Below are positions 11,310 through 38,539 of a DNA stretch of 38,552 nt, piece after piece. Source of the DNA: Lachnospiraceae bacterium (lineage in GTDB: Bacteria > Bacillota > Clostridia > Lachnospirales > Lachnospiraceae); the NCBI GenBank assembly GCA_011959925.1, contig BLMD01000145.1:1-38552 (forward strand), given 5' to 3'. How positions within the stretch are numbered: position 1 is the first letter of the stretch; each line of letters starts with the position of its first letter. A model generated the notes under the pieces. That model was not told the DNA's origin, searched no databases, and saw only the letters and a program-made list of their open reading frames with translations. Both the position numbers and the translations under genes were made by a program.

Positions 11310-11326
11310 TTGCTTATTCCCCTTTC

Positions 11327-11345: not shown

Positions 11346-11347
11346 AT

Positions 11348-13430: not shown

Positions 13431-13489
13431 TATGACAGGCGCCGCCTTCCACAGGCAAATGATTGGAGCCATTATCCCTTAAGACATAA

Positions 13490-13535: not shown

Positions 13536-13549
13536 GTCAAACAGATCCT

Positions 13550-14107: not shown

Positions 14108-14135
14108 AGTGCAAAACCCCCTCCGTTTCCGATTT

Positions 14136-15500: not shown

Positions 15501-15523
15501 TTCTTCTCATGTCCTCTCTGTCA

Positions 15524-15754: not shown

Positions 15755-16374
15755 TTTTCATACCCCTCGTTATCTTCTGCAGATGCTTTTGCATCCGAAC
15801 GATCCGGCTCTGCCTGAACGGCTTCCAGCTGCTTTCTTACTTCTTTTCCCACCTGTACCAGACGGCTGACAATCCAAAGATCCGTGATTCCGTCATAGAT
15901 TAACATGGCTCCCACAAAACTTAACGTCACTGAAATCACACCAAAACAGTCCACGATACATACGATGCCAAACGCCATGCCAAGAACTGCCAGCAAAATC
16001 AGGACCGCCCACGACGCATACCCGGTTCTCTTCGCTTCCAGCGCATATTTAAAATCTTCCAATCCGTGAACAAACAGCACGGCGCCGATGCCGATAAACA
16101 AAATGCTCTGTATGCTGCGGGGTTTTAAGAAAATCCAGACGCCTACAAGCAAAAGCACAAGTCCGAGCAAAAGCATTACGCTGTGTTCTTCCTCTCTGTG
16201 CAGAATATATCCGATCGTTCTTACCGCTCCCAGAAAAGCAATTACGGCGCCGATCGCTTTACAGACAACCGTCGTCACCTCGACCGGCCATAAAATTAAT
16301 ACAATACCAAGCGCAATGCATATAAACGCACTGATGATCACATCGATCTTTATCCTCTCTGCCAATTCCCGCAT
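15751..16374 (-). CDS. DUF308/HdeD-family membrane protein
   Basis: A 207-aa protein with six hydrophobic segments in two three-helix repeats (IISAFICIALGIVLILWP, MLLLGLVLLLVGVWIFL and so on), the pattern of the DUF308/HdeD family. That family is linked to acid or envelope stress, but its biochemical role is unknown. The C-terminal 35 residues are cytoplasmic and acidic. GGAGGCG lies nine bases before the ATG. It begins 20 bases after the ATP-grasp gene and is translationally coupled to the downstream small gene. Confidence 0.78.
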   Translation of the reverse strand: MRELAERIKIDVIISAFICIALGIVLILWPVEVTTVVCKAIGAVIAFLGAVRTIGYILHREEEHSVMLLLGLVLLLVGVWIFLKPRSIQSILFIGIGAVLFVHGLEDFKYALEAKRTGYASWAVLILLAVLGMAFGIVCIVDCFGVISVTLSFVGAMLIYDGITDLWIVSRLVQVGKEVRKQLEAVQAEPDRSDAKASAEDNEGYEN

Positions 16375-16394
16375 AAAGCAAACGCCTCCAATCT

Positions 16395-19999: not shown

Positions 20000-20011
20000 A
20001 CGCATCCCCTC

Positions 20012-21487: not shown

Positions 21488-21499
21488 GAAATCCCCTCC

Positions 21500-22987: not shown

Positions 22988-23038
22988 CGCCTCCTATCCC
23001 CTTTTGGCATCCCGTTATGCCGTTCGGCAGATCCTTTG

Positions 23039-24529: not shown

Positions 24530-24904
24530 TTACAGCCCTTCTTTCTTTAATCTCATTGTAATCTCATCCAGATCCAGCGTATGGTATCTGCGGTACAGAC
24601 GGATGGTCAGCGAGAGCATCAGCGCCGTCACCGACACGGACACTACGATTCCGGTCAAAACCAGCCCGCTTGGCACAGGATTGATATAGGTATCGGGATC
24701 TAAATTGCCGTTCACCACGATCGGCGCAAAATGCCCCTCGATATAACCTTTCTCGGCAAGGAACAGATAAACGGCAGTATCCATAATGTTCAGCCCGATA
24801 ATTTTTTTAATCATGTTCTTCTGCAAAAGCAGGTTGGTAAAGCCGATTCCAAATAAAGCAACCGCCACGACTTCCGCATAATTTGCAAACAAATGCTCTC
24901 CCAT
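24530..24904 (-). CDS. mrpC: MrpC/NuoK-type subunit
   Basis: A 124-aa protein with three transmembrane helices, homologous to NuoK: FGIGFTNLLLQKNMIKKIIGLNIMDTAVYLFL, then PSGLVLTGIVVSVSVTALMLSLTIRLYRRYHTLDLDEI. The start at 24904 has GGAGGATT upstream and overlaps the previous stop (TAATG); the longer frame to 24952 lacks a ribosome site. It is essential for assembly and ion coupling in Mrp complexes. Confidence 0.88.
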   Translation of the reverse strand: MGEHLFANYAEVVAVALFGIGFTNLLLQKNMIKKIIGLNIMDTAVYLFLAEKGYIEGHFAPIVVNGNLDPDTYINPVPSGLVLTGIVVSVSVTALMLSLTIRLYRRYHTLDLDEITMRLKKEGL

Positions 24905-25866
24905 TATAATCCTCCTCTCCGAAACAGCGCATAAAATGCATACATGGTACACGCGACCTCGGAACCGACAAAAATATTGATCGGCAGCGTAATTCCCCCG
25001 CTCAAAATTTTGCCTGGCTCACCCAACGGAATCAGACAGTCCAGCCCGTTTGCCCCCGTCAGAAAATAATATGTCACAATACAGCCGTAACAGATCAGCG
25101 CCGTCACTTTTACGCATTTATATGCTTTCTCGTTGAAAAATTTCCCCATCTTATCAAATCCAAACGCCGTTACATACAAAATCATCCCGGCTCCGATCAT
25201 CGCACCTCCAGAAAACCCTCCGCCCGGCGAAAGATGTCCGTTTAAAATTATGTAAATCCCAAATAAGAACACAACCGGAACCAAAAGCGTTGCGATCATC
25301 TGTAAGATCACATCATTTTTCGGCTCAAATCCACGGTCGTTCGACTCCTTATTTTCCCGGATTTTATCTTCGTCTACCATCAGCATGATCATCACACAGC
25401 AGGTTGCGATAAACAGCACATTCGTTTCCCCAAACGTATCAAACGCACGGTACGATAAAATCATGCCCGTTACAATATTTACGGCTCCCGTATCTTTTAG
25501 CCCGTCCGTAATATATGTCTCCGACACCAGATTGTTAGTCGGCTTATCCTCCATTCCGACCGATGGCAGGTAGGAAACCGTGATCACCAGCAGGCTTACG
25601 ATCGCAATGCAGAACACAATACTGAAACACTTATACAGCACCTGAAAAAATTTCAGTTCCTTATTGTGGCTGCTGTCATAAACTTCTGCCAGCGCTTGCT
25701 GACGGTCTTTCATCCGCTCTTTCATGGTGGCTTCTTCTTCCACATACTCTTTCTGTGGCTTCATTTCCATATTGCCTACAAATGCGTCCTTTTCTCCGCC
25801 CATCCACCGAAAAAAATGAAACGCAAACGTTTTTTCATACTCACTCTGTTTCCTGATATGACTCAT
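24904..25866 (-). CDS. mrpB: Fused MbhE-MrpB (MbhF) subunit
   Basis: A 320-aa protein. A roughly 70-residue charged N-terminus (GGEKDAFVGNME, Lys/Glu-rich) precedes an MbhE-like domain (YLPSVG...YITDGLKDTGAVNIVTGMILSYRAFDTFGET, about residues 100-160). An MrpB domain of four helices follows (IYIILNGHLSPGGGFSGGAMIGAGMILY). In canonical Mrp systems MbhD/MbhE are the tail of MrpA; here MbhE is joined to MrpB instead. The ATG at 25866 has AGGGGGAG and overlaps the MbhD gene by 26 bases. The soluble N-terminal extension has no obvious family. Confidence 0.82.
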   Translation of the reverse strand: MSHIRKQSEYEKTFAFHFFRWMGGEKDAFVGNMEMKPQKEYVEEEATMKERMKDRQQALAEVYDSSHNKELKFFQVLYKCFSIVFCIAIVSLLVITVSYLPSVGMEDKPTNNLVSETYITDGLKDTGAVNIVTGMILSYRAFDTFGETNVLFIATCCVMIMLMVDEDKIRENKESNDRGFEPKNDVILQMIATLLVPVVFLFGIYIILNGHLSPGGGFSGGAMIGAGMILYVTAFGFDKMGKFFNEKAYKCVKVTALICYGCIVTYYFLTGANGLDCLIPLGEPGKILSGGITLPINIFVGSEVACTMYAFYALFRRGGL

Positions 25867-26125
25867 CGTTCTCCCCCTCTTTCGGCTCCTGCTGCAGCGC
25901 ATGGATCTTTTTCAGCGTAACAAAAAACAGTATGCTCGTTACGCCGGCACCTACGGCCGCTTCTGTGATCGCCAGGTCCGGCGATTCCAAAAGTATCCAG
26001 ATAATCGACATGATCAGGCTGTAAGACATAAATATCAGGATCGAATTTAAAAGATTTTTGGAAAAACTGACGGAAACCGCACAGACCACCAAAAATCCCA
26101 GCAAAATCATATTAAAGATCATCAT
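25841..26125 (-). CDS. mbhD: MbhD-like subunit (DUF4040, MrpA tail domain)
   Basis: A 94-aa, three-helix protein matching the MbhD/DUF4040 domain: LLESPDLAITEAAVGAGVTSILFFVTLKKI carries the characteristic PDLAITEAAVGAG motif. Ribosome site AGAGG nine bases upstream; it overlaps mrpG by 14 bases and the next gene by 26. As a stand-alone gene it follows the archaeal Mbh arrangement rather than the MrpA fusion of Bacillus. Confidence 0.87.
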   Translation of the reverse strand: MMIFNMILLGFLVVCAVSVSFSKNLLNSILIFMSYSLIMSIIWILLESPDLAITEAAVGAGVTSILFFVTLKKIHALQQEPKEGENDESYQETE

Positions 26126-26489
26126 GCTCGTTCGCCTCTCTTTCGGATTTTTTCCGCTTCCTCAAAATTACAATCCGGCAGTGATCCAGTACCCTCTTAT
26201 CGGTAAACATCTGCAATCGCGCAATCATATGCGAAGATACCGGAGACGCGCACCACAAAAACACAAGGACTAGAGCAAGCTTTGCCGTCGCCCAGTTAAA
26301 ACCGTTTGCAATCATAAGCCCAATCAGGCACAGCCCGATTCCCAGCGTATCCCCCGTCGCCGCAATCTGCATACGGTTTAACACATAATGAAACCGGTAG
26401 GTACCAAATATTTCCAGGAAAAAAATCGACATTCCAAACAAAAGACATCCTGCCGCCAGAAAAAACCGAATCCACTCAATAGCCTCCAA
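26112..26489 (-). CDS. mrpG: MrpG subunit
   Basis: A 125-aa, three-helix MrpG/MnhG protein with the family pattern FFLEIFGTYRFHYVLNRMQIAATGDTLGIGLCLIG and WCASPVSSHMIAR near residue 80. It uses a TTG start (26487-26489) behind GGAGGGGGAG and overlaps mrpF by 14 bases. The C-terminal 25 residues are highly charged. Confidence 0.88.
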   Translation of the reverse strand: MEAIEWIRFFLAAGCLLFGMSIFFLEIFGTYRFHYVLNRMQIAATGDTLGIGLCLIGLMIANGFNWATAKLALVLVFLWCASPVSSHMIARLQMFTDKRVLDHCRIVILRKRKKSEREANEHDDL

Positions 26490-26811
26490 ACTTCTCCCCC
26501 TCCTTCGTCTTCCATTCCATATATACGCCCATATATACTTTTGTCAGCACAATCACTGCAAGAAAACTGATCATTGCATAGATCAGGCAGATATCTACCA
26601 GATATCCTTCCTGCACCATAACCGCAAGAATCGCGATCGCCACTATAACCATGGTTCCCATCATATTGACGGCTACGATCCGGTCCGCCATACGCGGTCC
26701 GATCACCGCCCGGATCAGACATGCAAAAAACAATATAGCCAAAATTACCAAAAACACCAGAAACAGGATATGATACGCCTGCTCAAGCGATGCAATCCCA
26801 CTATTCATCAT
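26476..26811 (-). CDS. mrpF: MrpF subunit
   Basis: A 111-aa, three-helix MrpF/MnhF protein: FFACLIRAVIGPRMADRIVAVNMMGTMVIVAIAIL contains the conserved GP-x-x-ADRI-x-A motif, followed by YLVDICLIYAMISFLAVIVL. Tandem ATG codons (26811 and 26808) follow GGAGGGG. It overlaps mrpE by 11 bases. Confidence 0.9.
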   Translation of the reverse strand: MMNSGIASLEQAYHILFLVFLVILAILFFACLIRAVIGPRMADRIVAVNMMGTMVIVAIAILAVMVQEGYLVDICLIYAMISFLAVIVLTKVYMGVYMEWKTKEGEKFGGY

Positions 26812-27301
26812 GTCCCCTCCGTTTCTTTAAAAACTCTTCATCCATTGCTTCCATCTTTCGCAGCATACGGACAAATATACTCTCGTCGATTCCTTCGATC
26901 AATGTTTCATCCAGCGCATGTACGATCAATTCGTCTTCCTCTAACGCCACCGTGATTGTCCCCGGCGTAAGCGTAATGGAATTTGCCAGCGCCACTCTTG
27001 CCGCCCTGGATTTTAAATCGGTCCGAAACCTTACGATCACAGGATCCACTTCATTTCTAACGCTGAGCGAGAGACGTATGGCATCCATATTTGCCTTAAT
27101 GATTTCCCAGATCAAAATCAGAATATATGCCAGAATATACGGCAGCTTCCGCATCAGCAGCAGATCCTTTTGAGGGGAATAATCCAGAAACCGACAGACA
27201 AACGCATACAAAACGCCGGCAATGATAACTCCGAAACAGACAATTTCCAGGTTGAACTGCCCGTTTAACATAATCCACAATAACAAAAATATAATATACA
27301 T
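26801..27301 (-). CDS. mrpE: MrpE subunit
   Basis: A 166-aa MrpE/MnhE protein: two or three N-terminal helices, then the family core YILILIWEIIKANMDAIRLSL and SRAARVALANSITLTPGTITV, followed by an acidic domain (EEDELIVHALDE). It is the first gene of the ten-gene antiporter operon. The ATG at 27301 has GAAAG close by and GGGAG about 12 bases upstream. Regulation is not evident beyond a weak promoter candidate. Confidence 0.88.
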   Translation of the reverse strand: MYIIFLLLWIMLNGQFNLEIVCFGVIIAGVLYAFVCRFLDYSPQKDLLLMRKLPYILAYILILIWEIIKANMDAIRLSLSVRNEVDPVIVRFRTDLKSRAARVALANSITLTPGTITVALEEDELIVHALDETLIEGIDESIFVRMLRKMEAMDEEFLKKRRGHDE

Positions 27302-27545: not shown

Positions 27546-28850
27546 CTACACATCGTAACGGCAGCAAAACCGCCGCTCAAATTCCTCCGCCAGCGTCCGT
27601 CGGAATTTCGGATGTGCAATACGAATCAGCGCCCTTGCCCGGTCTCTGAGCGTCTTTCCCCTAAGATGGGCAATGCCGTACTCCGTCACAATATAATCCA
27701 CATCCGTCCGCGATGTAGTCACGGCAGCCCCTTCATCCAGCACGGAGACAATTTTGGAAATCTTTCCTTTTGCCGCCGTCGACGCAATGGCGATGACGGA
27801 ACGACCGCCCCTGCTTAGCCTTGCGCCCCGGACAAAATCCAACTGTCCGCCGATGCCGCTGATCTGCGTCAGCCCGACGCTTTCCGATGCCACCTGTCCC
27901 GTCAGATCCACCTGTACGCAGGAATTGATCGACACCAGATGATCGTTTTGCCCGATCACATACGGATCGTTCACATACTCTACCGGCATAAGTGCAATGG
28001 ATGGATTATCGTCTGCATAATCATACAGCCGCTTTGTTCCCATCAGAAACGTCGCCACGGTTTTCCCCGGATGCAGCGTTTTCCTGGCATTTGTGATCAC
28101 GCCGCGCGTAATCAGCTCCACTACGCCGTCCGAAACCATTTCCGAATGAATGCCCAGGTCTTTTTTATCCTTCAAAAACAGCAGCACCGCATCCGGGATC
28201 GCTCCGATGCCAAGCTGCAGCGTATCGCCGTCATGAATCAGCTTTGCACAGTTCTCACCGATTGCCTGTTCCGTTTCTCCAATTACCGGCGGGGTAAGTT
28301 CCAGAATTGGACGGTTGATCTCTACAAAGCTGTCAATCTCGGATACATGAAGCTGCGTGTCTCCGTGCGTCCGCGGCATACTGCCGTTTACCTGGGCAAT
28401 CACGTACTTCGCCTTTTTGACTGCCGCAAGGGTATAATCTACGGAAATGCCCAGGCTTACATATCCGTGCCGATCCGGCGGGGAAACCTGAATGAGCGCC
28501 GCGTCTACCGGAAGCATTCCACCAAACAGACCCGGAATCTCATGAAAACAGCAGGGGGTGAAATCTCCCCGCCCCTCTTTTACGGCAGTTTTTGTATACG
28601 GACCCAGAAAAAATGCATTGAGCCGGAAATGCCCTTCCATGTCCGCATCTGCAAACCGGGCGTTTCCCATCGGCACAAGCTGCACGATCTCCGCATGTTT
28701 AAAATGCTCTTTCTGCCTTACCAGCTCATCCGTTAATGCAATCGGCACACCGGCGGCATGCGCCAGCACAATACGCCCGCCGGGTGCAATCCGCCGGATT
28801 GCCGCGCCTGCATTCGTCTTCCGTTTCTCATATACGTTCTGCCATTCCAT
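27546..28850 (-). CDS. abfT: 4-hydroxybutyrate CoA-transferase
   Basis: A 434-aa family I CoA-transferase of the acetyl-CoA hydrolase/transferase group, moving CoA from acetyl- or butyryl-CoA to 4-hydroxybutyrate. The catalytic Glu is E237 in GIHSEMVSDG, equivalent to E238 of the Clostridium aminobutyricum enzyme. The oxyanion/glycine loop QISGIGGQLDFVRGA and the C-terminal VTEYGIAHLRGKTLRDRARALI are also present. GGAGGCGG precedes the ATG. It follows the dehydratase AbfD by 18 bases; the combination strongly supports the 4-hydroxybutyrate assignment over generic acetate transfer. Confidence 0.88.
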   Translation of the reverse strand: MEWQNVYEKRKTNAGAAIRRIAPGGRIVLAHAAGVPIALTDELVRQKEHFKHAEIVQLVPMGNARFADADMEGHFRLNAFFLGPYTKTAVKEGRGDFTPCCFHEIPGLFGGMLPVDAALIQVSPPDRHGYVSLGISVDYTLAAVKKAKYVIAQVNGSMPRTHGDTQLHVSEIDSFVEINRPILELTPPVIGETEQAIGENCAKLIHDGDTLQLGIGAIPDAVLLFLKDKKDLGIHSEMVSDGVVELITRGVITNARKTLHPGKTVATFLMGTKRLYDYADDNPSIALMPVEYVNDPYVIGQNDHLVSINSCVQVDLTGQVASESVGLTQISGIGGQLDFVRGARLSRGGRSVIAIASTAAKGKISKIVSVLDEGAAVTTSRTDVDYIVTEYGIAHLRGKTLRDRARALIRIAHPKFRRTLAEEFERRFCCRYDV

Positions 28851-28868
28851 ATCGTCCGCCTCCGTCCA

Positions 28869-30320
28869 TCAATCCTTTATTTTTGCAATTTTCTTTGCCA
28901 TCTCTTTTTTCTTGGGCAGGTCTCCCTGGCGGGAAATCATGATCCGCTGCGCCTGCGGGCTTCCGGCTCCGTGCAGCGATTCCGTACGGTATCCGACCGC
29001 CGCCGTTCCAAGACAGAGATTTTCGATCAGCCGCAGAATGCGGATACGGTCTTCCACGCTGACGTCCTTTGCGCCTTTTAGATATTTTTCGACATAGGGT
29101 CCCGTCACCGGATCGCGGAAATCCGCCTCGGAAGGCGCCGTTACCATGATACCGCCCGCAATATCTTCCGCCAGGCGGGAAATCTCATACGGAAATCTGG
29201 TCACATTCTGCTTGCAGACATTGGCAAGCAGAAGATCGATCATATAATTGCCCGCCTCCGTTGGTTTTCCCTCTGCGGAACAGGCAATGCCGCAGCAATA
29301 TAAGCTTTCATTTAAATGCGTCATCTCAATCAGCTTATCTTTGATATGGGACGCTTTTGCGCATCCGTTGCAGTCCGCCGCAACCGCAGCCGCCCCGATC
29401 AGCACGTCCCCGACGCCCGCTTTACATCCGCCGTAGCTTTGTCTGTGGTATCCGGCAAACCGCTCTACCAGCACTCCCGCATACTCAGTTTCTCCGTTTA
29501 AGAAAATCCGCTCATTCGGCACAAACACATCGTTAAATACCACCAGAGCTTCCACGCCGCCGAATTCGCTGTTTCCCACATCCAGCTCGCTGCCCTCCAT
29601 TTTTCTGGTATCGCAGGACTGTCTTCCGATAATCATCAAAATCCCTTCCGTATCCGTAGGCACGGCAAACGCCACGGCATAATCTTTATCCTCCGGCTTC
29701 ATGGAAACCGTCGGCATCACGATCATTTCCTGGGAATTAATGGCGCCTGTCTGATGCGCTTTCGCGCCCCGTACGACGATGCCGTCTTCCCTGCGCTCCA
29801 CTACACGCAGATACAGATCCGGATCTTCCTGTGCATGCGGCGCAAGCCCTCTGTCCCCTTTCGGGTCCGTCATTGCACCGTCTACCGTCAGATCGTTCTC
29901 CTGGCAGTATTTCGCATATTCGATAAAATTTTTGTGATAGCTGCTCCCGTATTTCTGATCCGTTTCAAACGTCGTACTGAATACGGCGTTAAACGCATCC
30001 ATCCCGACGCATCTCTGGAAACAGGCGCCTGTCTGCTGTCCCAAGAGACGCTGCATCTTCACTTTGTCCATCAAATCTTTTGTACTTTGATGAATATGTA
30101 AAAAACGATTGATCTTCTTTCCCGTCAGCGAAGACGTCGCTGTCATAAGCTCCTCATACTGCGGATCCTGCGCAAGGTCATACGTCGCCTTTACGGAATT
30201 TAACGACGGCCGTAAAATCGGATGGTCCGCAGGACATGCAATCTTCTTTCCAAACATATATACGTTAAGGTTCAGCTTTCGTATGCTCTCCACATACTCC
30301 TCCCCTGTCATAAGCGCCAT
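28869..30320 (-). CDS. abfD: 4-hydroxybutyryl-CoA dehydratase / vinylacetyl-CoA isomerase
   Basis: A 483-aa flavin and 4Fe-4S enzyme that dehydrates 4-hydroxybutyryl-CoA to crotonyl-CoA by a radical mechanism. All four cluster ligands known from C. aminobutyricum AbfD (C99, C103, H292, C299) are present at C100, C104, H292 and C299, in GACFQRC and YHRQSYGGC. FAD-binding segments of the acyl-CoA-dehydrogenase-like fold are intact. The start is 30320, with AAAGGAGA upstream; the longer frame to 30383 adds an unrelated 21 residues. Oxygen-sensitive in characterised members, consistent with a strict anaerobe. Confidence 0.93.
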   Translation of the reverse strand: MALMTGEEYVESIRKLNLNVYMFGKKIACPADHPILRPSLNSVKATYDLAQDPQYEELMTATSSLTGKKINRFLHIHQSTKDLMDKVKMQRLLGQQTGACFQRCVGMDAFNAVFSTTFETDQKYGSSYHKNFIEYAKYCQENDLTVDGAMTDPKGDRGLAPHAQEDPDLYLRVVERREDGIVVRGAKAHQTGAINSQEMIVMPTVSMKPEDKDYAVAFAVPTDTEGILMIIGRQSCDTRKMEGSELDVGNSEFGGVEALVVFNDVFVPNERIFLNGETEYAGVLVERFAGYHRQSYGGCKAGVGDVLIGAAAVAADCNGCAKASHIKDKLIEMTHLNESLYCCGIACSAEGKPTEAGNYMIDLLLANVCKQNVTRFPYEISRLAEDIAGGIMVTAPSEADFRDPVTGPYVEKYLKGAKDVSVEDRIRILRLIENLCLGTAAVGYRTESLHGAGSPQAQRIMISRQGDLPKKKEMAKKIAKIKD

Positions 30321-30386
30321 AATATTCTCTCCTTTCGTTACATTATTTATTGTGCTGCTTTCCAGCACATAAAGGGATACCATACT

Positions 30387-31523
30387 CTACAGGCATCTCC
30401 GGTAAATTTCCCTGATTTCCTCCTGTGTCAGTTCCGCATAATTATTTGCCAAAAGCCTCTGCTGGTTTTTGACCGTACTTTGGGCGAATACATCCAGATC
30501 CTCTCTCTGCGCGCCGTAATCCGACATTGGACGGCGGGCAAGCACGTTCTGCAAAAGCTCCTCCAAAAGAGAAATACCGTCCTCCTTTGTCTCTTCCCCG
30601 GCAAATCCTTCTCTGCACAAAATCTCCCGAACCATCTGCTCAAACACGGCTATCTTGCCTTTCGGCTTCTTTGTCTGATACATCCGCAGCACTTCCGTAA
30701 AAAACTGATAATTGCTTTCTCCGTGCGGCACATGGTATTTACCGCCGAACGCATAGCTCATCGCATGTACGGCGGCGCAGCCGCTGTTTGAAAATGCGAT
30801 TCCCGCATATGTACTTGCCCTTAGATATGCTTCTTTCTCTTCTTTCCAGACATCCGTTCCATATGCCGCTATCTTTCCATATCCCCACAGGATTATTTCA
30901 ACCGCCTGCTTGGAATACAGCTCCGTAAACGGCGTAGCTTTCGGGCTGAGATAGGATTCTGCCGCATGTACCAGAGCGTCGATCGAACTGGTGGCAAATA
31001 CTTTATACGGAAGACTTTCTAAAAATTCCGGAATCAGAACCGCAGCATCCGCATACATCGCTTCCGACACCAGTCCCTGTTTCGTACCGAGCGCCAGCCG
31101 GTTTAGAATCGCAATATTCGTCACTTCACTTCCGGTTCCGCAGGTCGTAGGCACGATCACAAGCGTCTGGTTTTTTTTCAGGTCAGCCATATGTGCATAC
31201 ATCTGATCTATCGTATCCTGCCCTTTTAGCACAAGCGCTTTTGCCAGGTCAATGATCGTACCGCCTCCGATCGCAATGATACGGCTGCAGTCTCTTTTTT
31301 GCACTTCTTCCAAAAGCGCCTGTGCCATCTCATCTGTCGGTTCTCCCTGTCCGTATTTCTCCTGAAAAATGACAGAACTCTTCAGGCGTTCCGTTTCGAT
31401 GACCGGACGGTATATGTATTCGTTTGTCAGTATCAAATCATCCGCCCCGACCGCAAACGCTTCTGCAAATGTATGAAAATCTGAAAACTCCCAGATTTCC
31501 GGACGAATCAACAGCTGTTTCAT
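30387..31523 (-). CDS. 4hbD: 4-hydroxybutyrate dehydrogenase (iron-containing ADH family)
   Basis: A 378-aa group III alcohol dehydrogenase, NAD-dependent, interconverting succinate semialdehyde and 4-hydroxybutyrate. Visible motifs: the dinucleotide loop GGGTIIDLAKAL, PTTCGTGSEVTNIAI, and metal ligands D182, H186 (DALVHAAE), H253 and H267 (AVHAMSYAFGGKYHVPHGESN). The start overlaps the transketolase stop (ATGA) with AAAGGAGAG upstream. Position directly before abfD supports this substrate. No succinyl-CoA reductase is seen in the window, so the source of the semialdehyde lies elsewhere or differs. Confidence 0.85.
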   Translation of the reverse strand: MKQLLIRPEIWEFSDFHTFAEAFAVGADDLILTNEYIYRPVIETERLKSSVIFQEKYGQGEPTDEMAQALLEEVQKRDCSRIIAIGGGTIIDLAKALVLKGQDTIDQMYAHMADLKKNQTLVIVPTTCGTGSEVTNIAILNRLALGTKQGLVSEAMYADAAVLIPEFLESLPYKVFATSSIDALVHAAESYLSPKATPFTELYSKQAVEIILWGYGKIAAYGTDVWKEEKEAYLRASTYAGIAFSNSGCAAVHAMSYAFGGKYHVPHGESNYQFFTEVLRMYQTKKPKGKIAVFEQMVREILCREGFAGEETKEDGISLLEELLQNVLARRPMSDYGAQREDLDVFAQSTVKNQQRLLANNYAELTQEEIREIYRRCL

Positions 31524-32494
31524 TTGCTCTCCTTTCGCTTCATCACTTCTTTGACCGCTTCTGCAATCTGCTCCGCCTCTAACCCAAACCGCTTAGAAAG
31601 CTCGTGCAGCTTTCCGACCTCGCCGAACTCATCCTGCACGCCGACCATTTTTACGGGAACCGGTTTTTCTTTTACAAGCACTTCGGCAACCGCCGATCCC
31701 AGACCGTTGATGACATTGTGATTTTCCGCCGTTACAATTCCGCCGGTCTCTTCTGCCGCCGCCAGAATCGCTTCTCTGTCAATCGGCTTCCAGGTAAACA
31801 TGTTCAGCACGCGGACCGAAATTCCTTCCGTTTTCAAAAGATCCGCAGCCCGCAATGCTTCCGCCACGCAAAATCCGCTGGCAATCACGGTAAGGTCGTC
31901 TCCCTCACGCAGCGTGACGGCTTTTCCGATTTCAAAATCCGATCCGTCTTCATAGACTTTTTTCACAGATTTACGGACTAAGCGCAGATAATGCATCCCG
32001 TAAGTCGTTGCAATTTTCGGAAGCAGGTTTTTCAGCATCGCGATATCCGTCGGCTCGATCACCGTCATCGTCGGAATGCCCCGCATTATCCCCATATCTT
32101 CAAACGGCATATGCGTACCGCCGTTTAACTCCGCCGTAATCCCGGGATCCGAACCTACCAGTTTTACGTTCATTTTTGCATATGCGCCGGACATAAAGAC
32201 CTGGTCGCAGGCGCGGCGCGTGATAAACGGAGCAAAGGTGTGGGCAAACGGCACATATCCGGCAGCGGAAAGTCCGCAGGCAACGCCGACCATGTTGGCT
32301 TCCTGGATCCCACAGTCAACCGTCTGTCCCGGAAATTTCTTACCAAACGGCGCCATTCCCATAGCCGCCATCAAATCCGCGTCCAGAGCGGTAATTTTCG
32401 GATTTTTCTCCGCCAGTTCCATCATTGCCTCGCAATATCCCGTTCTCATATCTTTCGTTTCGTTTTCGATGGTTTTACAAACTGCCGCTTTCAT
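31520..32494 (-). CDS. Transketolase, C-terminal subunit
   Basis: A 324-aa subunit with the pyrimidine-binding and C-terminal domains of a two-gene transketolase. The catalytic Glu that activates thiamine diphosphate is E65 in DCGIQEANMVGVACGLSAAG. The substrate-side loop THMPFEDMGIMRGIP and the C-terminal ENHNVINGLGSAVAEVL are conserved. ATGA overlap with the N-terminal subunit ensures equal synthesis. Split transketolases in catabolic clusters include those acting on D-apulose 4-phosphate (AplAB) and 6-deoxy-6-sulfofructose (SqwGH), so a non-housekeeping substrate is plausible. Confidence 0.88.
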   Translation of the reverse strand: MKAAVCKTIENETKDMRTGYCEAMMELAEKNPKITALDADLMAAMGMAPFGKKFPGQTVDCGIQEANMVGVACGLSAAGYVPFAHTFAPFITRRACDQVFMSGAYAKMNVKLVGSDPGITAELNGGTHMPFEDMGIMRGIPTMTVIEPTDIAMLKNLLPKIATTYGMHYLRLVRKSVKKVYEDGSDFEIGKAVTLREGDDLTVIASGFCVAEALRAADLLKTEGISVRVLNMFTWKPIDREAILAAAEETGGIVTAENHNVINGLGSAVAEVLVKEKPVPVKMVGVQDEFGEVGKLHELSKRFGLEAEQIAEAVKEVMKRKESK

Positions 32495-33351
32495 TCTGCA
32501 TCACCCTCCTCAATCGCCTGCAGCGCCTGCCGCATTTCTTTTAACGCACGTTCTTTATCTTCCTGTGAGATCGTACGGCTGTGGCTTCCCACCTTTCCTT
32601 CTATTTCACTCCACCCCTTTCCTTTGACCGTATGCAGCACGATCATCGTCGGTTTATCCGTCTGTTTTTTTGCTTCTTCTACAGCGGCGTCGATGCTTTC
32701 CACATCATGGCCGTCCACCGTACGGGAATTCCACCCAAACGCTTCAAATTTCAAACCGATATCCCCCAAAGCGCAGAGCTCGTCTACCTCTCCGTCGATC
32801 TGAAGCTTGTTATTATCCACAAACGCAATCAAATTTCCCAATTTCTTTGCGGCTGCAAACATCGCCATCTCCCAGACCTGTCCTTCCTCAATCTCTCCGT
32901 CTCCCAGGACAAGATATACCCGATTGTCTTTTCCCGACATCTTAAGTCCCAGCGCCACGCCGGCAGCGGAAGACGCTCCCTGCCCCAGAGAACCTGTCGT
33001 AATATCAATGCCCGTCGTTAAATTCCGGTCGCAATGGCTGGGCAGGCGCGTGCCGCACCGGTTCAGCGTATCCAGCTGTTCCATCGGGAAATAACCTTTC
33101 AGCGCAAGCGCGGAATACACCGCCGGCCCCGCATGCCCTTTGGATACCACCAGCCAGTCCCTCTCTTCCCAGGCCGGATGTTTCGGATCAATCTTCATCT
33201 GTTTTCCGTACAATACCGCCAGCAGGTCGGCAATTGACAATGCGCCTCCCACATGTCCGATGCCTATACCCGCAATGGTTTCTATGGTTTTCATCTGGAT
33301 CTGTTTTGAAAATATCCGTAGTTTCTTCTTTTCGTCTTTTTGCATACTCAT
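32491..33351 (-). CDS. Transketolase, N-terminal subunit
   Basis: A 286-aa thiamine-diphosphate-binding subunit. The motif GDGEIEEGQVWEMAMFAAAKKLGNLIAFVDNNK is the GDG...NN cofactor site; H33 in GIGHVGGALSIADLL and SKGHAGPAVYSALALKGYF are typical of transketolase N-domains. ATG 33351 overlaps the upstream dehydrogenase stop (ATGA), with AAGGAG nearby. It forms a heterotetramer with the next gene's product. Membership of an operon with an isomerase and two dehydrogenases suggests a dedicated catabolic role. Confidence 0.88.
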   Translation of the reverse strand: MSMQKDEKKKLRIFSKQIQMKTIETIAGIGIGHVGGALSIADLLAVLYGKQMKIDPKHPAWEERDWLVVSKGHAGPAVYSALALKGYFPMEQLDTLNRCGTRLPSHCDRNLTTGIDITTGSLGQGASSAAGVALGLKMSGKDNRVYLVLGDGEIEEGQVWEMAMFAAAKKLGNLIAFVDNNKLQIDGEVDELCALGDIGLKFEAFGWNSRTVDGHDVESIDAAVEEAKKQTDKPTMIVLHTVKGKGWSEIEGKVGSHSRTISQEDKERALKEMRQALQAIEEGDAE

Positions 33352-34454
33352 TCTGCTCCTTCCCTGCCTGCTTCCTCCGGACTGATGTTTAAAATCACCT
33401 TAAGCGCCTGTTTGGTTTTCACCAGTTCCATCGCCCTGCCGATTTCCTCCATCGGAACGATATGTGAATAAAAGTCTTCCGGACGGATCTTTTTTTCCCG
33501 GATCAATCGTATATTTTCTTCCATCACATCGTACTCCCCAAACGGAAAATTCAGCATATGCAGCCTCGTATTATTTTTCAGGCGGCCGAGATTCATCTGC
33601 AAATCGTCTTTTTTCAGCACTCCCATCGAACCTGCCGTACCGCCCGGCTTTAAAAAGGAGGATGCCTGAATTAAAACGTCCGACAGGCCTACTGCGTCGA
33701 TTGCAACGTCAAACAGCCGCCCCTGCAGCGCCTCTTTTATGTCTTCTTTCTCAAAATTAATAATCTGATCCGCATGCGCCACGGTTCTTGCATTGTCAAG
33801 CCTCTCCTGCCTGCCGTCGACCACCGCCAGAAAATCCGCTCCGATAATTTTGCTGTACGCCGCGACTGCCGTTCCCATCGGTCCCGCGCCGAACACCAGG
33901 ACCGAACTGCCTTTAGTCACGCCGAAATTTTTTGCGGCGCTTAAGCTCTCGCTTAAAGACAGCAGCATCGCCCCGTAGGTAAACGGAAAATCCCTTGGAA
34001 CCTGCCAGAATTTTTTATAAAACGGAAAATCCAGCCTGGACATCTCTTTGGGACAGAATCCGTCTTCGATCATCGCCCGATGATCCGCCACAAGTCCGTA
34101 TTCCGCCATACCGCCGTACGTTTTCGAGTAGCCTGCTCCCACATCCGGATGCAGGTTATTGTGGATAAACCGGTCGCCCGGTTTGATATACCGCACTTTT
34201 TTTCCAAGTTTCACGGCATATCCTACGCCTTCATGCCCAAGAATCGTCGGATAGGGCTGCAGCCCCTCCGTCTCTTCCATTGTATTTAAAATAATCTGAA
34301 AATCGCTCCCGTTGCAGAATCCGCAATGCACCACCTTTACCAGCACTTCATAATCATTTGGTTTTGGAATCGGCACATCGTCTACGATCCGCACATCCCC
34401 TGCGCCAAATACCGCGACTGCGCGCATCGTCTGTTTTGTATCGAATCTATCCAT
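33348..34454 (-). CDS. Medium-chain dehydrogenase, substrate unknown
   Basis: A 368-aa MDR-superfamily oxidoreductase. The catalytic zinc site is suggested by C44/C47 (HCGFCNGSD) and H74-E75 (ILGHEGVG); the Rossmann motif is VLVFGAGPMGTAVAAY. The four-cysteine structural zinc loop is absent, replaced by an insertion (HNNLHPDVGAGYSKTYGGMAEYG). ATG 34454 is chosen, ten bases after the previous stop, with GAGGTG upstream at long spacing; the longer TTG start at 34484 has no ribosome site. It likely oxidises a polyol or reduces a sugar-derived aldehyde in this pathway. Confidence 0.75.
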   Translation of the reverse strand: MDRFDTKQTMRAVAVFGAGDVRIVDDVPIPKPNDYEVLVKVVHCGFCNGSDFQIILNTMEETEGLQPYPTILGHEGVGYAVKLGKKVRYIKPGDRFIHNNLHPDVGAGYSKTYGGMAEYGLVADHRAMIEDGFCPKEMSRLDFPFYKKFWQVPRDFPFTYGAMLLSLSESLSAAKNFGVTKGSSVLVFGAGPMGTAVAAYSKIIGADFLAVVDGRQERLDNARTVAHADQIINFEKEDIKEALQGRLFDVAIDAVGLSDVLIQASSFLKPGGTAGSMGVLKKDDLQMNLGRLKNNTRLHMLNFPFGEYDVMEENIRLIREKKIRPEDFYSHIVPMEEIGRAMELVKTKQALKVILNISPEEAGREGAE

Positions 34455-34464
34455 GGTTTTGGCG

Positions 34465-35448
34465 TCACCTCGCTTTACCCTCAAAAATACGTCTCGGCGT
34501 ATCTACAAGCATTGCCTTAATGTCAAATTCACTGAAACCGGCGGCTTTCAATTCCGGCAGCACGCGTTCCGTAATAAATGCAAACTGAAATTCCAGCTTC
34601 TCTATATCAAACTCCCGAACCATCTTCCACGGACAGCCCAGGTTTTCTTTTCCTTCCCAATAATCAATAAAAATCGACGCGTCGTGAGCGCATACAATCT
34701 GCTCCAATTTTCCCCTGTGTTTCAATTCTATGATATTTTTGATCCGCTCTTTGGTATCCAATTGCTCCGGATGACGCTTATCTACGCCGATGCGGTCTTC
34801 TCCCACATAAAATCCCCGGTCTGCGACGGATGCCAAAAAATCCGGATCGTCCAGATCTCCGATATGTCCGATGATGACCCGGCCAGGGTCTACGCCCCGC
34901 TCCGTCAGAAATTTCATCTGCGACTCTGCGCCCGCTTTTCCGGCAGAGTGTGTAATGATCGGCGCATTTGTCTCCTTATGCGCGATCACTGTCGCCTCCC
35001 ATATGGTTTCATCCAGCTTACTCATATGATCCTGCGATGTTCCGCATTTGATTATGCCCGCTTTCACAGACGTGCCCTCCATGCCTTTCTCCAGATCCCG
35101 CAGCAGTATCTCTGCCAGAAATTCCGGACTTTTATCGACCAGGCAGATTTCGTTTCCCCAAAAATATCCGGTCGCCGCAATAATATTGATTTCTGCCTCT
35201 TCCGATACCCGCTGCAGTACCGATACGTCCCTTCCCAGCTGAAACGGCGTAACGTCTACAATGGTACGGACCCCCGCGCGTTTTCCTCTCGCAATGTAAC
35301 GTTTTGCAAACGCGGTAAATTCATCGATATTGATCCAGTCCGCCCACATCCTGCGCATCGTATGGTTTGCGATCATAATATGCTCATGCATCAGTGTATA
35401 GCCCATGTCTTTCGTATCCAGGCTGCCCAGTACCGTATTTACTTTCAT
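34465..35448 (-). CDS. Phosphotriesterase-family hydrolase, probable lactonase
   Basis: A 327-aa amidohydrolase-fold enzyme of the phosphotriesterase-like family. The binuclear metal set is complete: H21 and H23 (LMHEHI), the carboxylated lysine K134 (AGIIKCG), H167 (PIITHSAG), H195 (VIIGHIGD) and D256 (CAHDAS). Bacterial members in sugar operons are mostly lactonases, opening sugar-acid or gamma-lactones. AGGAGGCG precedes the ATG. It lies 11 bases after the isomerase gene. A lactone from oxidation of a cyclic sugar, or gamma-butyrolactone, would fit the neighbours, but this is inference. Confidence 0.82.
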   Translation of the reverse strand: MKVNTVLGSLDTKDMGYTLMHEHIMIANHTMRRMWADWINIDEFTAFAKRYIARGKRAGVRTIVDVTPFQLGRDVSVLQRVSEEAEINIIAATGYFWGNEICLVDKSPEFLAEILLRDLEKGMEGTSVKAGIIKCGTSQDHMSKLDETIWEATVIAHKETNAPIITHSAGKAGAESQMKFLTERGVDPGRVIIGHIGDLDDPDFLASVADRGFYVGEDRIGVDKRHPEQLDTKERIKNIIELKHRGKLEQIVCAHDASIFIDYWEGKENLGCPWKMVREFDIEKLEFQFAFITERVLPELKAAGFSEFDIKAMLVDTPRRIFEGKAR

Positions 35449-35459
35449 AGTATCGCCTC

Positions 35460-35933
35460 CTATTTGAACTGCGTTTCCTCCAATTCATACACCTGCTTTA
35501 AAAACCCGCTCAGTTTGTCAAATCGCTCCTGCGGTGAGTTTTCGCAGAATTTTGTATATAAAAAGGTATCTGCAATATCATTTGCCATATCTTCTCCCAA
35601 AATGCGTCCGCCCATCGCCAGCATATTGGCATTGTTGACAATCCTGCATTCTCTTGCCGCCCACTGGCTCTCCACCAGGGCGCAGTAAACGCCTTTGTGC
35701 TTGTTTGCCACAATACTTACGCCCATACCCGTGCCGCAGAATACGATTCCAAATTCCGACTCTTTTGTCTGAACCGATACTGCCACGCGGTCGGAAACCT
35801 CGATATATTTCACCGGTTCATCCGCGGCAAGCGTGCCCAAGTCTAACATCTCGTATCCTTCCGCAAGCAAATGCGCTTTTACTTTTTCTTTTAACTCAAA
35901 TCCCAAAGGATCTGCTCCTATCGCAACTTTCAT
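35460..35933 (-). CDS. RpiB/LacB-family sugar isomerase with altered active site
   Basis: A 157-aa isomerase. The family fold and the catalytic Cys are clear (C66 in FGIVFCGTGMGVSIVANK). Two residues of ribose-5-phosphate isomerase B are changed: the Asp-His pair of SDHxG is D8-P9 (GADPLGF), and the ring-opening His (H99 in E. coli) is Val (RIVNNANML). The substrate is therefore probably not ribose 5-phosphate; a linear tetrose or modified sugar is possible. The start is 35933 with GGGAGGAA upstream. It is grouped with a split transketolase, as in transketolase-based sugar pathways. Confidence 0.8.
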   Translation of the reverse strand: MKVAIGADPLGFELKEKVKAHLLAEGYEMLDLGTLAADEPVKYIEVSDRVAVSVQTKESEFGIVFCGTGMGVSIVANKHKGVYCALVESQWAARECRIVNNANMLAMGGRILGEDMANDIADTFLYTKFCENSPQERFDKLSGFLKQVYELEETQFK

Positions 35934-35986
35934 CTGATTTCCTCCCTGCTCTTTTTTCTGCCGCCGGCACAAAACGCCGCCTTACC

Positions 35987-37027
35987 TCATTTCATAGAGA
36001 CAACCGCTTTGATCACATCCGCTTTTTCATTCATCGCTTTCTCAAACGCTTTCTGCACATCTGCAAAAGCAAACAGATCCGTTGCCGCCTCTTTTACCGA
36101 AATCCGTCCCGACGCTACCTCTTTGATTGCTTCCGGAAAGATATTTCTGTAACGAAAGACCGATTGAATCTGCCCTTCTTTCAAATACAGGTTCCGAAAG
36201 CTGAACGAAACGTCCGGTACAATATTTCCTACCATTACAATCGTCCCGCCGCGTTTTAACAGACCGCTCGTCTGTGCTGCCGTCACTTTGTTTCCCGCCG
36301 TCTCAAATACAACGTCAAACCCTTCCCCGTCCGTCACGTCATTGCATGCAGCCAGAATATCCGTATCCGGCAGAGAAGCAAACACATCCGTTGCCCCAAG
36401 CATTTTCGCTTTTTCCAGCCGCTTGTCAAACAGGTCCGACACAAAGATTGTCGAAGCTCCCGCTGCTTTACATGCCAGCAATGTCATCAGCCCGATACAT
36501 CCGCCGCCCAGAACCGCCGCTTTCATGCCCGGCCTTACGCCGCCTTTTTTTACGGCATACATTCCGACGGCCAGCGGTTCGATCAAAGCGCCTTCCAGAG
36601 AAGACACCTGATCCGGCAGCAGATATGTCATATCTTCTCTGCAGCAGAACGCTTCCCGCAGCACGCCGTCATACGGCGGCGTCGATAAAAATCGAATATC
36701 CGGACAGAGGTTATACCTGCCGCTTTTACAATATGTACACGTTCCGCACGGAATCCCCGGTTCTATCGTTACACGGTCGCCCGCTTTCCGGCTTTTTACG
36801 TTTGTTCCCACCTTTACTACCGTACCCGCACATTCATGTCCCAGGATAAAAGGATAGCGAACCGCACAATTTCCGATCTTTCCATTTTCAAAAAAATGTA
36901 CGTCCGAGCCGCAGATGCCCACATATTCCGGACGTATGACGACTTCGTTTTCCTTTGGTTCTTCCAATTCTGTTTCTTCTATTGTTATGTTCTTTGGCTC
37001 TGTCAGCCTTGCCGCTTTTATCTTCAT
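35987..37027 (-). CDS. Zinc-dependent sorbitol/xylitol-dehydrogenase-like enzyme
   Basis: A 346-aa NAD-dependent polyol dehydrogenase of the SORD branch. Catalytic zinc ligands C39 (GICGSDVHFF) and H64-E65 (ILGHECAG); structural zinc C94, C97, C100, C108 (PCGTCTYCKSGRYNLC). The following FLSTPPYDGVLREAF is a hallmark of sorbitol/xylitol dehydrogenases. The Rossmann loop is AVLGGGCIGLMTLLA, then SDLFDKR. AGGAGG lies six bases before the ATG. It likely oxidises a secondary alcohol of a polyol or sugar acid that enters the operon's pathway. Confidence 0.85.
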   Translation of the reverse strand: MKIKAARLTEPKNITIEETELEEPKENEVVIRPEYVGICGSDVHFFENGKIGNCAVRYPFILGHECAGTVVKVGTNVKSRKAGDRVTIEPGIPCGTCTYCKSGRYNLCPDIRFLSTPPYDGVLREAFCCREDMTYLLPDQVSSLEGALIEPLAVGMYAVKKGGVRPGMKAAVLGGGCIGLMTLLACKAAGASTIFVSDLFDKRLEKAKMLGATDVFASLPDTDILAACNDVTDGEGFDVVFETAGNKVTAAQTSGLLKRGGTIVMVGNIVPDVSFSFRNLYLKEGQIQSVFRYRNIFPEAIKEVASGRISVKEAATDLFAFADVQKAFEKAMNEKADVIKAVVSMK

Positions 37028-37045
37028 CTTCTGCCTCCTCTGCCG

Positions 37046-37630
37046 TCACCGGATATAGATCACCGGATTCCCGGTTCTCTTTGGCGCGCTGATATGCTCC
37101 TGTGCCGCAAATCCAAGCGCGACGGCTCCCATAACCGCTTCGTCGTTTCCGATCCCAAGTCCCTGCAGATACTTTTCCATGACCGCATTTTGGGACAGCC
37201 ACTTCAGCTGATTGATCCAGCAGGAGCCGATCCCAAGCGACGCCGCGGCGATCATCATATTTTCCATTGCGGCGGCACAGTCTGCCATCGCATTGTCATA
37301 TCCCTTTTTATTCGCCAGAATCATTAAGGTCGGCGCATGATAATGAAACACATAGCCTCCCTTTTTGGAACGCAGGATGGAGTTTTTTAAACTCTGGTAC
37401 ATCGAATCCGAAATTTCCATTTTGGAAAATTCTTCTTCCGCAATCTCTGCAAGTTCCGATAAAATCTTTGCATTCTGCACGGCCAGAAACGTCGTATACT
37501 GATGATTTCCGCCGCTAGGCGCATACCTTCCTGCCTGAATAATTATTTCCAGGTCCGAATCGTCGATCTGCTGCTCTAAAAAGCTGCGGACGCTGCGCCG
37601 TCTAATGATCGTATCGATTACCGTTCGCAT
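37046..37630 (-). CDS. Nitroreductase-family flavoprotein
   Basis: A 194-aa FMN-binding oxidoreductase. Family motifs: RRRSVRSF near the N-terminus, APSGGNHQYTTFLAV (FMN contact), AAAMENMMIAAASLGIGSCWI and the C-terminal GAVALGF. The ATG abuts the shikimate-dehydrogenase stop (TAAATG) with GGAGGGGAGG upstream. Nitroreductases in anaerobe catabolic operons may reduce quinones, enoates or other activated double bonds; the substrate here is unknown. Confidence 0.83.
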   Translation of the reverse strand: MRTVIDTIIRRRSVRSFLEQQIDDSDLEIIIQAGRYAPSGGNHQYTTFLAVQNAKILSELAEIAEEEFSKMEISDSMYQSLKNSILRSKKGGYVFHYHAPTLMILANKKGYDNAMADCAAAMENMMIAAASLGIGSCWINQLKWLSQNAVMEKYLQGLGIGNDEAVMGAVALGFAAQEHISAPKRTGNPVIYIR

Positions 37631-38539
37631 TTACGCCATTCCTCCCCTCCTTTGATCGCGAAGATCCCGGAGCGTTACGGCGCAGGCAAGCGCCTCTTCC
37701 GCCTGCAGCAGACACTTCTGCGGCAGCTTTATGCCGAAACGAAATTCGATCATAGCAATCTGCTGATTTAACAGCATGCCAAGGCCGTTTAACACAGGAA
37801 GCCCAAGCGCTTTCGCCCTGTCCAGAAACTCCGTGTTCGGATATAAGACGTCTGCGCAGAGCACATCCTTATGCAGCCGTTCCATAAACCGAAGCGATTG
37901 GTACTGCTGCGCGCTCCCCGCCATTCCAAGCGACGTGCACTGTACGACAAGATCCGCCTGTGATGCCGCGCCGGCTAAGTATTCCTCCGTAAGTTCTCCG
38001 TATCCTGTTTTTACTCCAAAATAATCTCCGATGGTTTGGGCCGTCTTTTTCGCTTTTTCCACTGTCCGGTTTGCTACAAAAACTTCGCTTACGCCTCTTT
38101 GGCAAAGATCTGCCCCGATCGGTCCCGCAACGGAACCCGCGCCCAGTAAAAGCACTTTTTTCCCTTTCAGGGAGCCTGCTTTTTCTGCAATTGCAGAGCC
38201 CATGCCCACGCCGTCCAATCCGATTCCGATCAGTTTTCCGTTCTCGTTTTTGACATGATTGACCGAATTAAACAGGCGGCTGGTTTCGTCGCATTCATCC
38301 AACAGCGGTATAATATCGCTTTTATGCGGCATGGTAATGTCAAATCCGTTTAAATTCAGCCTTCTGACCGCCTCTGTAAATTCCGGCAGCGTTCCTTTTT
38401 TTACAAGGATGGGCACGCAGACGGCATTGATATTTGCCAGGTCATACATTTCATTGTGCAAAAAAGCGGCCGTACTGTGATCGATTGGATCGCCGATCTG
38501 AAAAATCAGCTGCGTATCCACATCATATTTCACTCTCAT
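37631..38539 (-). CDS. Shikimate/quinate dehydrogenase-like protein
   Basis: A 302-aa AroE-superfamily enzyme. Seen are the catalytic Lys K73 in FDITMPHK, N94, D109 (GIGLDGVGM), the nucleotide loop LLGAGSVAGPIGADL, VANRT (NADP-type) and VLNGLGMLLNQ. The substrate-carboxylate motif that normally reads HSxSPxxHN is HSTAAFLHN (S22 kept, second Ser replaced by A24), so shikimate may not be the substrate. GAGGA lies eight bases before the ATG, 13 bases from the window edge. Most upstream gene seen in the operon; it may be quinate/shikimate catabolism or a paralogue with a new substrate. Confidence 0.8.
   Translation of the reverse strand: MRVKYDVDTQLIFQIGDPIDHSTAAFLHNEMYDLANINAVCVPILVKKGTLPEFTEAVRRLNLNGFDITMPHKSDIIPLLDECDETSRLFNSVNHVKNENGKLIGIGLDGVGMGSAIAEKAGSLKGKKVLLLGAGSVAGPIGADLCQRGVSEVFVANRTVEKAKKTAQTIGDYFGVKTGYGELTEEYLAGAASQADLVVQCTSLGMAGSAQQYQSLRFMERLHKDVLCADVLYPNTEFLDRAKALGLPVLNGLGMLLNQQIAMIEFRFGIKLPQKCLLQAEEALACAVTLRDLRDQRRGGMA

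Follow-up and report, generated by a model that had tools for sequence, protein, structure and literature searches.

What compound could be broken down by a gene cluster in which a split transketolase directly precedes genes resembling a 4-hydroxybutyrate module, and how would its carbon enter that module? The question is raised by a contig of a Lachnospiraceae bacterium (BLMD01000145.1, assembly GCA_011959925.1), hereafter called the window. The window is the entire contig C145 (38,552 bases) of an assembly of 3.92 Mb in 418 contigs (completeness 92.9%, contamination 5.2%). An original prediction, made from the letters alone, described an operon of eight genes between 31,520 and 38,539. The eight open reading frames, all on the minus strand, their ends and their families were recovered (Pfam Shikimate_dh_N/Shikimate_DH, Nitroreductase, ADH_N/ADH_zinc_N twice, LacAB_rpiB, PTE, Transketolase_N and Transket_pyr/Transketolase_C), but the extent of the operon had to be revised, as three more genes lie on the same strand. 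In reading direction, the genes are the following:

37631-38539, minus strand: AroE-like dehydrogenase of a divergent subfamily, not a biosynthetic shikimate dehydrogenase (Pfam, NCBIfam, relatives)
37046-37630, minus strand: nitroreductase-family flavoenzyme, NTR (Pfam PF00881, 7e-30; nearest PDB entry 3ek3, 1.7e-32)
35987-37027, minus strand: zinc MDR dehydrogenase, MDR1 (best NCBIfam model scyllo-inosose 3-dehydrogenase IolM)
35460-35933, minus strand: RpiB/LacAB-fold isomerase, non-housekeeping (TIGR00689 above cut-off; Cys66 kept)
34465-35448, minus strand: phosphotriesterase-like lactonase/hydrolase, PTE (PF02126, 7e-62; nearest PDB chains named "aryldialkylphosphatase", e.g., 2vc5, about 3e-51)
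33348-34454, minus strand: second, rare MDR dehydrogenase, MDR2 (65% relative in genome G751)
32491-33351, minus strand: N-terminal subunit of a split transketolase, TktN (PF00456, 1e-57; GDG...N cofactor motif)
31520-32494, minus strand: C-terminal subunit of the split transketolase, TktC (changed donor-site residues A44 and D116)
30387-31523, minus strand: iron-dependent alcohol dehydrogenase, FeADH, putatively a 4-hydroxybutyrate dehydrogenase (Pfam, tree, gene order as at locus L190)
28869-30320, minus strand: 4-hydroxybutyryl-CoA dehydratase AbfD, HpaB-family (alignment to 1U8V)
27546-28850, minus strand: acyl-CoA transferase of the butyryl-CoA:acetate / 4-hydroxybutyrate CoA-transferase type (Pfam AcetylCoA_hyd_C, 6e-68)

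The eight genes of the first set are predicted from their layout to be coupled, because the gaps between them are small (0, 18, 53, 11 and about 10 nt) and two pairs, MDR2/TktN and TktN/TktC, share 4 nt each. An overlap of the same length joins TktC to FeADH, and gaps of 66 nt (FeADH-AbfD) and 18 nt (AbfD-CoA-transferase) follow before a gap of 244 nt. The operon appears to comprise 11 genes (27,546-38,539, minus strand), which would be transcribed as a single unit. The original prediction had noted no kinase or transporter in view of its eight genes; neither is found among these 11 genes, and the contig stops at 38,552; its last 203 bases have no match elsewhere in the genome except for one stretch of 24 bases. 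The GC content at third codon positions is 0.51-0.59 for the operon genes versus 0.54-0.59 for six other genes of the contig, and the overall GC content over the operon is 0.506 versus 0.451.

The three added genes shift the reading towards a C4 piece, derived by the transketolase, that feeds a butyrate-forming route. AbfD matches the enzyme of Clostridium aminobutyricum (1U8V) with E = 8e-241 and the vinylacetyl-CoA isomerase 6vjr with 631 bits, whereas flavin monooxygenases reach at most 170 bits. Residues C99, C103, H292 and C299, which we take to be the ligands of the [4Fe-4S] cluster, are all conserved in the alignment to 1U8V, together with Lys300, to which we likewise assign a role in AbfD. 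The best NCBIfam model for the CoA-transferase is the butyryl-CoA:acetate CoA-transferase, at 315 bits below its cut-off of 675, and the protein is 46-64% identical to the gene adjoining AbfD at 14 of the 22 AbfD loci surveyed in the class. At locus L190, from the family of the window genome, the order FeADH-AbfD-CoA-transferase is the same, and the end of a CoA-acylating aldehyde dehydrogenase stands in front. The 11 operon genes, to which this search was confined, include no aldehyde dehydrogenase, the CoA-dependent succinic semialdehyde dehydrogenase included. Because L190 has one before the same three genes and the operon has none, the transketolase would replace the source of the semialdehyde. 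The end of the operon thus reads as a predicted path from a semialdehyde to 4-hydroxybutyrate, its CoA ester and crotonyl-CoA.

It is proposed, tentatively and with somewhat less than even confidence, that the 11-gene operon ferments a non-phosphorylated, sugar-like substrate through the split transketolase into this route; every reaction, and the direction of flow, we infer. MDR1, MDR2, the AroE-like enzyme and the nitroreductase-like flavoenzyme would change the oxidation state of the substrate, the PTE-fold enzyme would hydrolyze a lactone (or a cyclic diketone) and the RpiB-fold enzyme would interconvert aldose and ketose. The latter could either prepare the ketose, by analogy with IolB in the inositol route, or recycle a tetrose, like SqwI. 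The product of these enzymes would be a ketose acid of the type HOCH2-CO-CHOH-R-COO(-). From this, the split transketolase would transfer a C2 ketol to an acceptor of the pentose phosphate pathway and release a C4 semialdehyde, most likely succinic semialdehyde. This compound is favored over its 3-hydroxy form because the AbfD of the window sits among the canonical enzymes. FeADH would reduce the semialdehyde to 4-hydroxybutyrate, the CoA-transferase would activate the latter to its CoA ester and AbfD would dehydrate the ester to crotonyl-CoA, on the way to butyrate. The genes, their families and order, the active-site residues of AbfD, the altered donor site of the transketolase and the recurrence of a transketolase near AbfD are supported by the sequence. 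The transketolase as supplier of the semialdehyde is a predicted role.

The donor site of the transketolase is altered. Among solved structures, TktC is closest to the split transketolase 6yaj (1.6e-76), and at the phosphate site, a serine is replaced by alanine (Ala44) and a histidine by aspartate (Asp116). The available part of the report on the sulfofructose transketolase describes identical Ser to Ala and His to Asp changes (PMC11659671). A tree of 90 TktC rows places the window with loci L049 and L050 (100/99) and then with L051 (97/95), while the sulfoquinovose-type loci fall elsewhere. These nearest relatives lie amid transport and dehydrogenase genes; the comparison covers the relatives and not the genome's own housekeeping transketolase, for which no search was made. 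At L049, the transketolase is preceded by a GntP-family permease, a zinc dehydrogenase, a hydrolase of the creatininase family and a member of the hydroxyacid dehydrogenase family. L050 combines MDR1, RpiB and the transketolase with a TIM barrel and an ABC transporter of the ribose type, and L051 has a branched-chain-type ABC transporter, a cupin, the transketolase, an MDR, AbfD and a CoA-transferase.

The main argument for a functional link between transketolase and AbfD is that the two genes are paired repeatedly with conflicting trees. AbfD occurs at 17 places in 9 of 16 genomes searched, and at six of these places (the window, L051, L164, L165, L166 and L175), a transketolase gene adjoins it or stands one gene off; two of the 17 places were viewed through 1.5-kb flanks only and some lie at contig ends. 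The paired loci fall in three separate TktC clades, in a tree whose backbone is poorly settled; at L165, only TktN is in view. In the AbfD tree, the window lies among canonical AbfDs (100/97) and the other transketolase-linked AbfDs lie in a distant clade; a single group of transketolase-linked AbfDs was present in 0 of 200 bootstrap trees. The TktC tree instead joins the window and L051 (97/95). This conflict suggests that transketolase and AbfD were paired separately, more than once, although the three label changes on the AbfD tree could also be one gain and two losses. The trees were built from matches above a coverage cut of 0.6-0.8, so that partial AbfDs such as those of L164 and L175 were left out, and some genes appear under two locus identifiers. 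The AbfD row of L051 is identical to that of the canonical locus L173 in the same genome; therefore, at least the transketolase locus L051 uses an unspecialized AbfD. Loci L164, L166 and L175 are further transketolase loci with AbfD close by. Another transketolase locus, L063, holds FeADH, Gfo/Idh and MDR genes, with no AbfD in view up to the contig edge at which it ends.

A number of observations weigh against the proposed route. None of the 15 NCBIfam models listed for FeADH reaches its cut-off, the best being the sulfoacetaldehyde reductase SarD (164.5 versus 700 bits); the FeADH of L190 scores alike. The 16 genomes searched for AbfD were a biased choice, as 15 had been picked for holding TktC relatives. 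In the survey of the class, AbfD was found in 21 of 391 genomes (own genome included), and the flanks of the 22 other AbfD loci contain no transketolase within 1.5 kb, a distance that in the arrangement of the window would reveal just the tip of TktC. Conversely, AbfD lies within 10 kb of TktC at one of 80 scanned TktC loci, many of whose contigs end early. Among the nearest transketolases, L050 shows no AbfD in view and the contig of L049 stops 248 nt past TktC. AbfD beside the set of AroE and MDR1 is seen only in the window, and not in the three other genomes with related clusters (G742, G751 and G791). The RpiB of the window pairs with that of locus L073 (98/86), while those of G742 and G751 form their own clade, in a tree whose bootstrap is not settled; because of these different clades, RpiB may have been swapped. 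At the inositol-type locus L165, described below, the expected transketolase product bears an extra hydroxyl, and therefore AbfD would not receive plain 4-hydroxybutyryl-CoA there. Finally, the common natural sugars do not include a C6 precursor that would yield succinic semialdehyde.

Which enzymes would deliver the ketose acid? Against the shikimate dehydrogenase models that NCBIfam lists, the AroE-like protein stays below each cut-off (best 159 versus 252 bits), and it is 28-29% identical to the genome's own housekeeping AroE on contig C131. Its relatives are found in G751 (59%, Eubacteriales S27M_St_5), G742 (48%, Clostridiaceae bacterium strain 9) and G791 (50%), and a scan of 295 genomes around G751 found the subfamily in three, G751 included. 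K73 and D109, presumably the catalytic Lys/Asp pair of shikimate dehydrogenases, are kept. Of the residues that we take to bind shikimate (Ser14, Ser16 and Thr101, E. coli numbering), the position of Ser16 is Ala in 5/5 subfamily members and that of Thr101 is Leu or Met. A quinate or shikimate substrate was rejected: the shikimate-binding residues are changed and, by reasoning only, no hydroaromatic route to a transketolase donor could be drawn. The subfamily profile matches the 5-ketofructose reductase 7cok at 4e-41, in fifth rank, and the best shikimate dehydrogenase at 8e-50. With the structural model (mean pLDDT 86.8), the fold search ties both enzymes, the best E-value being common to them.

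RpiB scores 118 bits with the rpiB equivalog TIGR01120, below the cut-off of 138.65, and is 37% identical to the housekeeping RpiB of the same genome on contig C239, a member of a 25-row clade that adjoins the window and L073. It is 45-50% identical to the isomerases of the sulfoquinovose-type loci L038 and L039, but stands elsewhere, with L073, in the poorly settled tree. L073, from a metagenome-assembled genome labelled Prevotella, carries a split transketolase, an RpiB of the window's clade, an old-yellow-enzyme-type flavoprotein, an SDR, an MDR, an M20-family protein and a ribose-type ABC transporter. The flavoprotein in place of a nitroreductase hints, without proof, at an ene-reduction. 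MDR1 reaches 211.6 bits with the IolM model, under the cut-off of 450, and its relatives (44-49%) lie near AroE, RpiB or transketolase genes in G742, G751 and G791. PTE retains the motifs HEH, K, H, H and D, presumably its metal ligands. Among 295 genomes of the window's order, three contain it at E <= 1e-30 (its own and two at 32-36% identity); a pattern search of genome contigs gave 10 matches but no relatives, and the 28 plasmid records are all below 60%, the best at 36%. MDR2 is confined, at E <= 1e-40, to 1 of 398 genomes of the phylum, its own; at E <= 1e-20, 15 genomes of the genus gave its own and two at 27% identity.

The original prediction saw a catabolic operon built on a split transketolase with an isomerase of the RpiB type, and named phylogeny and co-conservation as tests that might refute it. 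Neither did so. Both RpiB and AroE stand apart from the genome's own housekeeping copies, with a long-branch warning for the AroE tree and an unsettled bootstrap for that of RpiB. A housekeeping pentose phosphate set is not favored, since the separate RpiB (C239) and AroE (C131) lie apart from the operon copies. Co-conservation was found as well, in G742, G751 and G791. One region of G751 holds PTE (57%), NTR (42%, between PTE and MDR2) and MDR2 (65%), followed by a LacI-type regulator, a TIM barrel, a second PTE (39%), an ABC transporter, MDR1 (49%), RpiB (45%) and AroE (59%). In one region of G742, AroE (48%), MDR1 (48%), RpiB (47%), TktN (69%) and TktC (71%) occur together, and on a 3.5-kb contig of G791, MDR1, AroE and TktN are consecutive. 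AroE, MDR1 and the RpiB type are thus together in two other genomes, and PTE, NTR and MDR2 in one. Genes of a ribose-type ABC transporter and a LacI-type regulator adjoin the homologues in all three genomes (named by eye or similarity in G751 and G791). The gene set is rare and patchy, yet not a chance assembly. MDR1, AroE and the transketolase look like its core, and PTE, NTR and MDR2 like a second block. In L144, two separate PTE genes share one region (4464-7186 and 8566-16453), one with NTR and MDR2, the other with a TIM barrel and a transporter.

A cyclitol-type substrate has to be weighed first among the alternatives. The upstream enzymes would then form 2-deoxy-5-keto-gluconate or a stereoisomer, with RpiB in the role of IolB, and the transketolase would release 3-hydroxy-4-oxobutanoate. 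FeADH would reduce this to 3,4-dihydroxybutyrate, whose CoA ester AbfD would turn into acetoacetyl-CoA, or which would first be dehydrated and reduced. The model for such a route is an inositol-type row in G742 (contig C22, bases 1-24,000; L165 and L179). The row starts with Gfo/Idh, a sugar symporter, a TIM barrel and IolE (376 bits versus a cut-off of 290), contains IolG-like (333/355), IolD (863/715) and IolB-like (95/205) proteins and ends with FeADH (52%), CoA-transferase (52%), AbfD (69%) and TktN (54%), the last cut by the contig end. No IolC kinase above the cut-off was found in the G742 genome (best 140 versus 300), while G751 has one; IolJ was not part of this search. According to the available part of its description, the Anaerostipes inositol route employs IolC and IolJ at that point (PMC8355322). 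Cleavage of 2-deoxy-5-keto-gluconate by the transketolase would yield 3-hydroxy-4-oxobutanoate, and the G742 operon possibly represents a kinase-free inositol fermentation. For the window itself, the best NCBIfam match of MDR1, IolM, points in the same direction, but it is well under the cut-off, and IolD, IolB and IolE are lacking among the 11 genes. Moreover, the related clusters carry a weakly IolE-like TIM barrel that finds no match in the window's own genome, and the AbfD of the window falls among canonical 4-hydroxybutyrate loci, apart from the inositol one. A cyclitol-type route in the window is rather unlikely.

Two independent neighbors could also be imagined: a rare-ketose route standing before an ordinary 4-hydroxybutyrate module. 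In that route, MDR1 would invert C5 together with an AroE resembling 5-ketofructose reductase, and transketolase and RpiB would remove two C2 units in the style of the sulfo-transketolase pathway. The 7cok match of the AroE profile and the tied fold search would suit such a route, although the best shikimate dehydrogenase scores better with the profile, and the isomerases of sulfoquinovose-type loci share up to 49-50% identity with RpiB. Short units without the module exist: a binding protein, MDR1, AroE and TktN in G791, and RpiB with transketolase, without AbfD, in G742. However, the TktC gene runs 4 nt into that of FeADH, the proximity of transketolase and AbfD recurs, and PTE and NTR would be left unexplained; mere adjacency is rather unlikely.

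The original prediction also drew a comparison with the sulfoquinovose (sulfo-transketolase) and apiose operons. A split transketolase with the donor-site changes of the sulfofructose enzyme, next to an RpiB-fold isomerase, is what such an operon would offer. The comparison is not supported, since the operon ends in FeADH-AbfD-CoA-transferase, which fits a carboxylic C4 compound, and since neither TktC nor FeADH falls in the clades of L038 and L039, loci called sulfoquinovose-type from gene content alone. No sulfoquinovose isomerase, sulfonate gene (including those for sulfoacetaldehyde or isethionate) or kinase is found among the 11 genes up to the contig end. In the apiose transketolase pathway, a sugar kinase accompanies the transketolase; none is present among the 11 genes, a statement about gene content, as apiose transketolases themselves were not compared. 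Either operon is very improbable here. Equally far-fetched is steroid side-chain cleavage like that by DesAB of Clostridium scindens, another anaerobe with a split transketolase and a zinc dehydrogenase and proposed, in the available part of PMC3735941, to work by transketolation, as the 11 genes include no DesD-like symporter and RpiB, PTE and AbfD would be without an evident role.

The remainder of the contig offers some further observations. Directly downstream of the operon, after the 244-nt gap and on the same strand, genes for subunits of an Mrp-type Na+/H+ antiporter are located (17906-27301; MNHE, MnhB, Proton_antipo_M). A 520-aa protein (11868-13430) has many leucine-rich repeats and, by eye, a signal-like start. 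An 849-aa protein (5569-8118) with many near-repeats of an Ala/Gln/Lys-rich stretch, again by eye, lies beside an MMPL-family transporter (8219-10345), and a gene of the nitrite/sulfite reductase family (6-1568) is present at the left contig end.

The fermentation of a sugar-like substrate through transketolase and AbfD remains the preferred reading of the operon, which probably is a previously undescribed variant of transketolase-based catabolism. As the original prediction held, no named pathway matching it was found in the literature among the matches listed, and no title or abstract start among them couples transketolase to AbfD. More broadly, and with a little less assurance, gut-type Clostridia may need neither kinase nor aldolase to ferment sugar acids and cyclitols (inositol in Clostridiaceae bacterium strain 9): a split transketolase would strip off C2 units, and AbfD would turn the C4 semialdehydes left over into precursors of butyrate; this pairing would have arisen more than once, the window being one version. 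If so, butyrate formation would have an entry that bypasses sugar phosphorylation and aldol cleavage, a transketolase would have a direct link to a dehydratase of the radical type, and the AroE fold, whose enzymes normally serve biosynthesis, would have a member in catabolism. The signature TktN-TktC with FeADH-AbfD-CoA-transferase could then flag degraders of sugars or inositol in gut metagenomes.

In comparison with known systems, the operon shares with the succinate/4-hydroxybutyrate branch to butyrate (1U8V, L190) the order FeADH-AbfD-CoA-transferase and an AbfD of the same clade, whereas transketolase genes take the place of the CoA-acylating aldehyde dehydrogenase in front. The AroE-fold enzyme 7cok, the 5-ketofructose reductase, acts on a free sugar and resembles the window enzyme in fold, but with only 28% identity over the fold alignment. 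For myo-inositol catabolism (IolG/E/D/B, IolC/IolJ), the likeness lies in G742, whose operon runs into FeADH-CoA-transferase-AbfD-TktN where the known route has IolC/IolJ; IolE, IolD and IolB have no counterpart among the window's 11 genes. With the DesAB 17,20-desmolase of C. scindens (available part of PMC3735941), whose split transketolase is proposed to act on a ketol other than a sugar phosphate, the likeness is one of gene content and not of sequence, and the companion genes differ. Compared with the sulfofructose transketolase pathway (SqwGH/SqwI), the window adds AroE, NTR, PTE and two MDRs, with no sulfoquinovose isomerase or sulfonate enzymes in view. As far as the available part of PMC11659671 describes that pathway, the two have in common a split transketolase with an altered phosphate site, an RpiB-fold isomerase, an iron-dependent alcohol dehydrogenase next to the transketolase and, for the window putatively, an unphosphorylated substrate.

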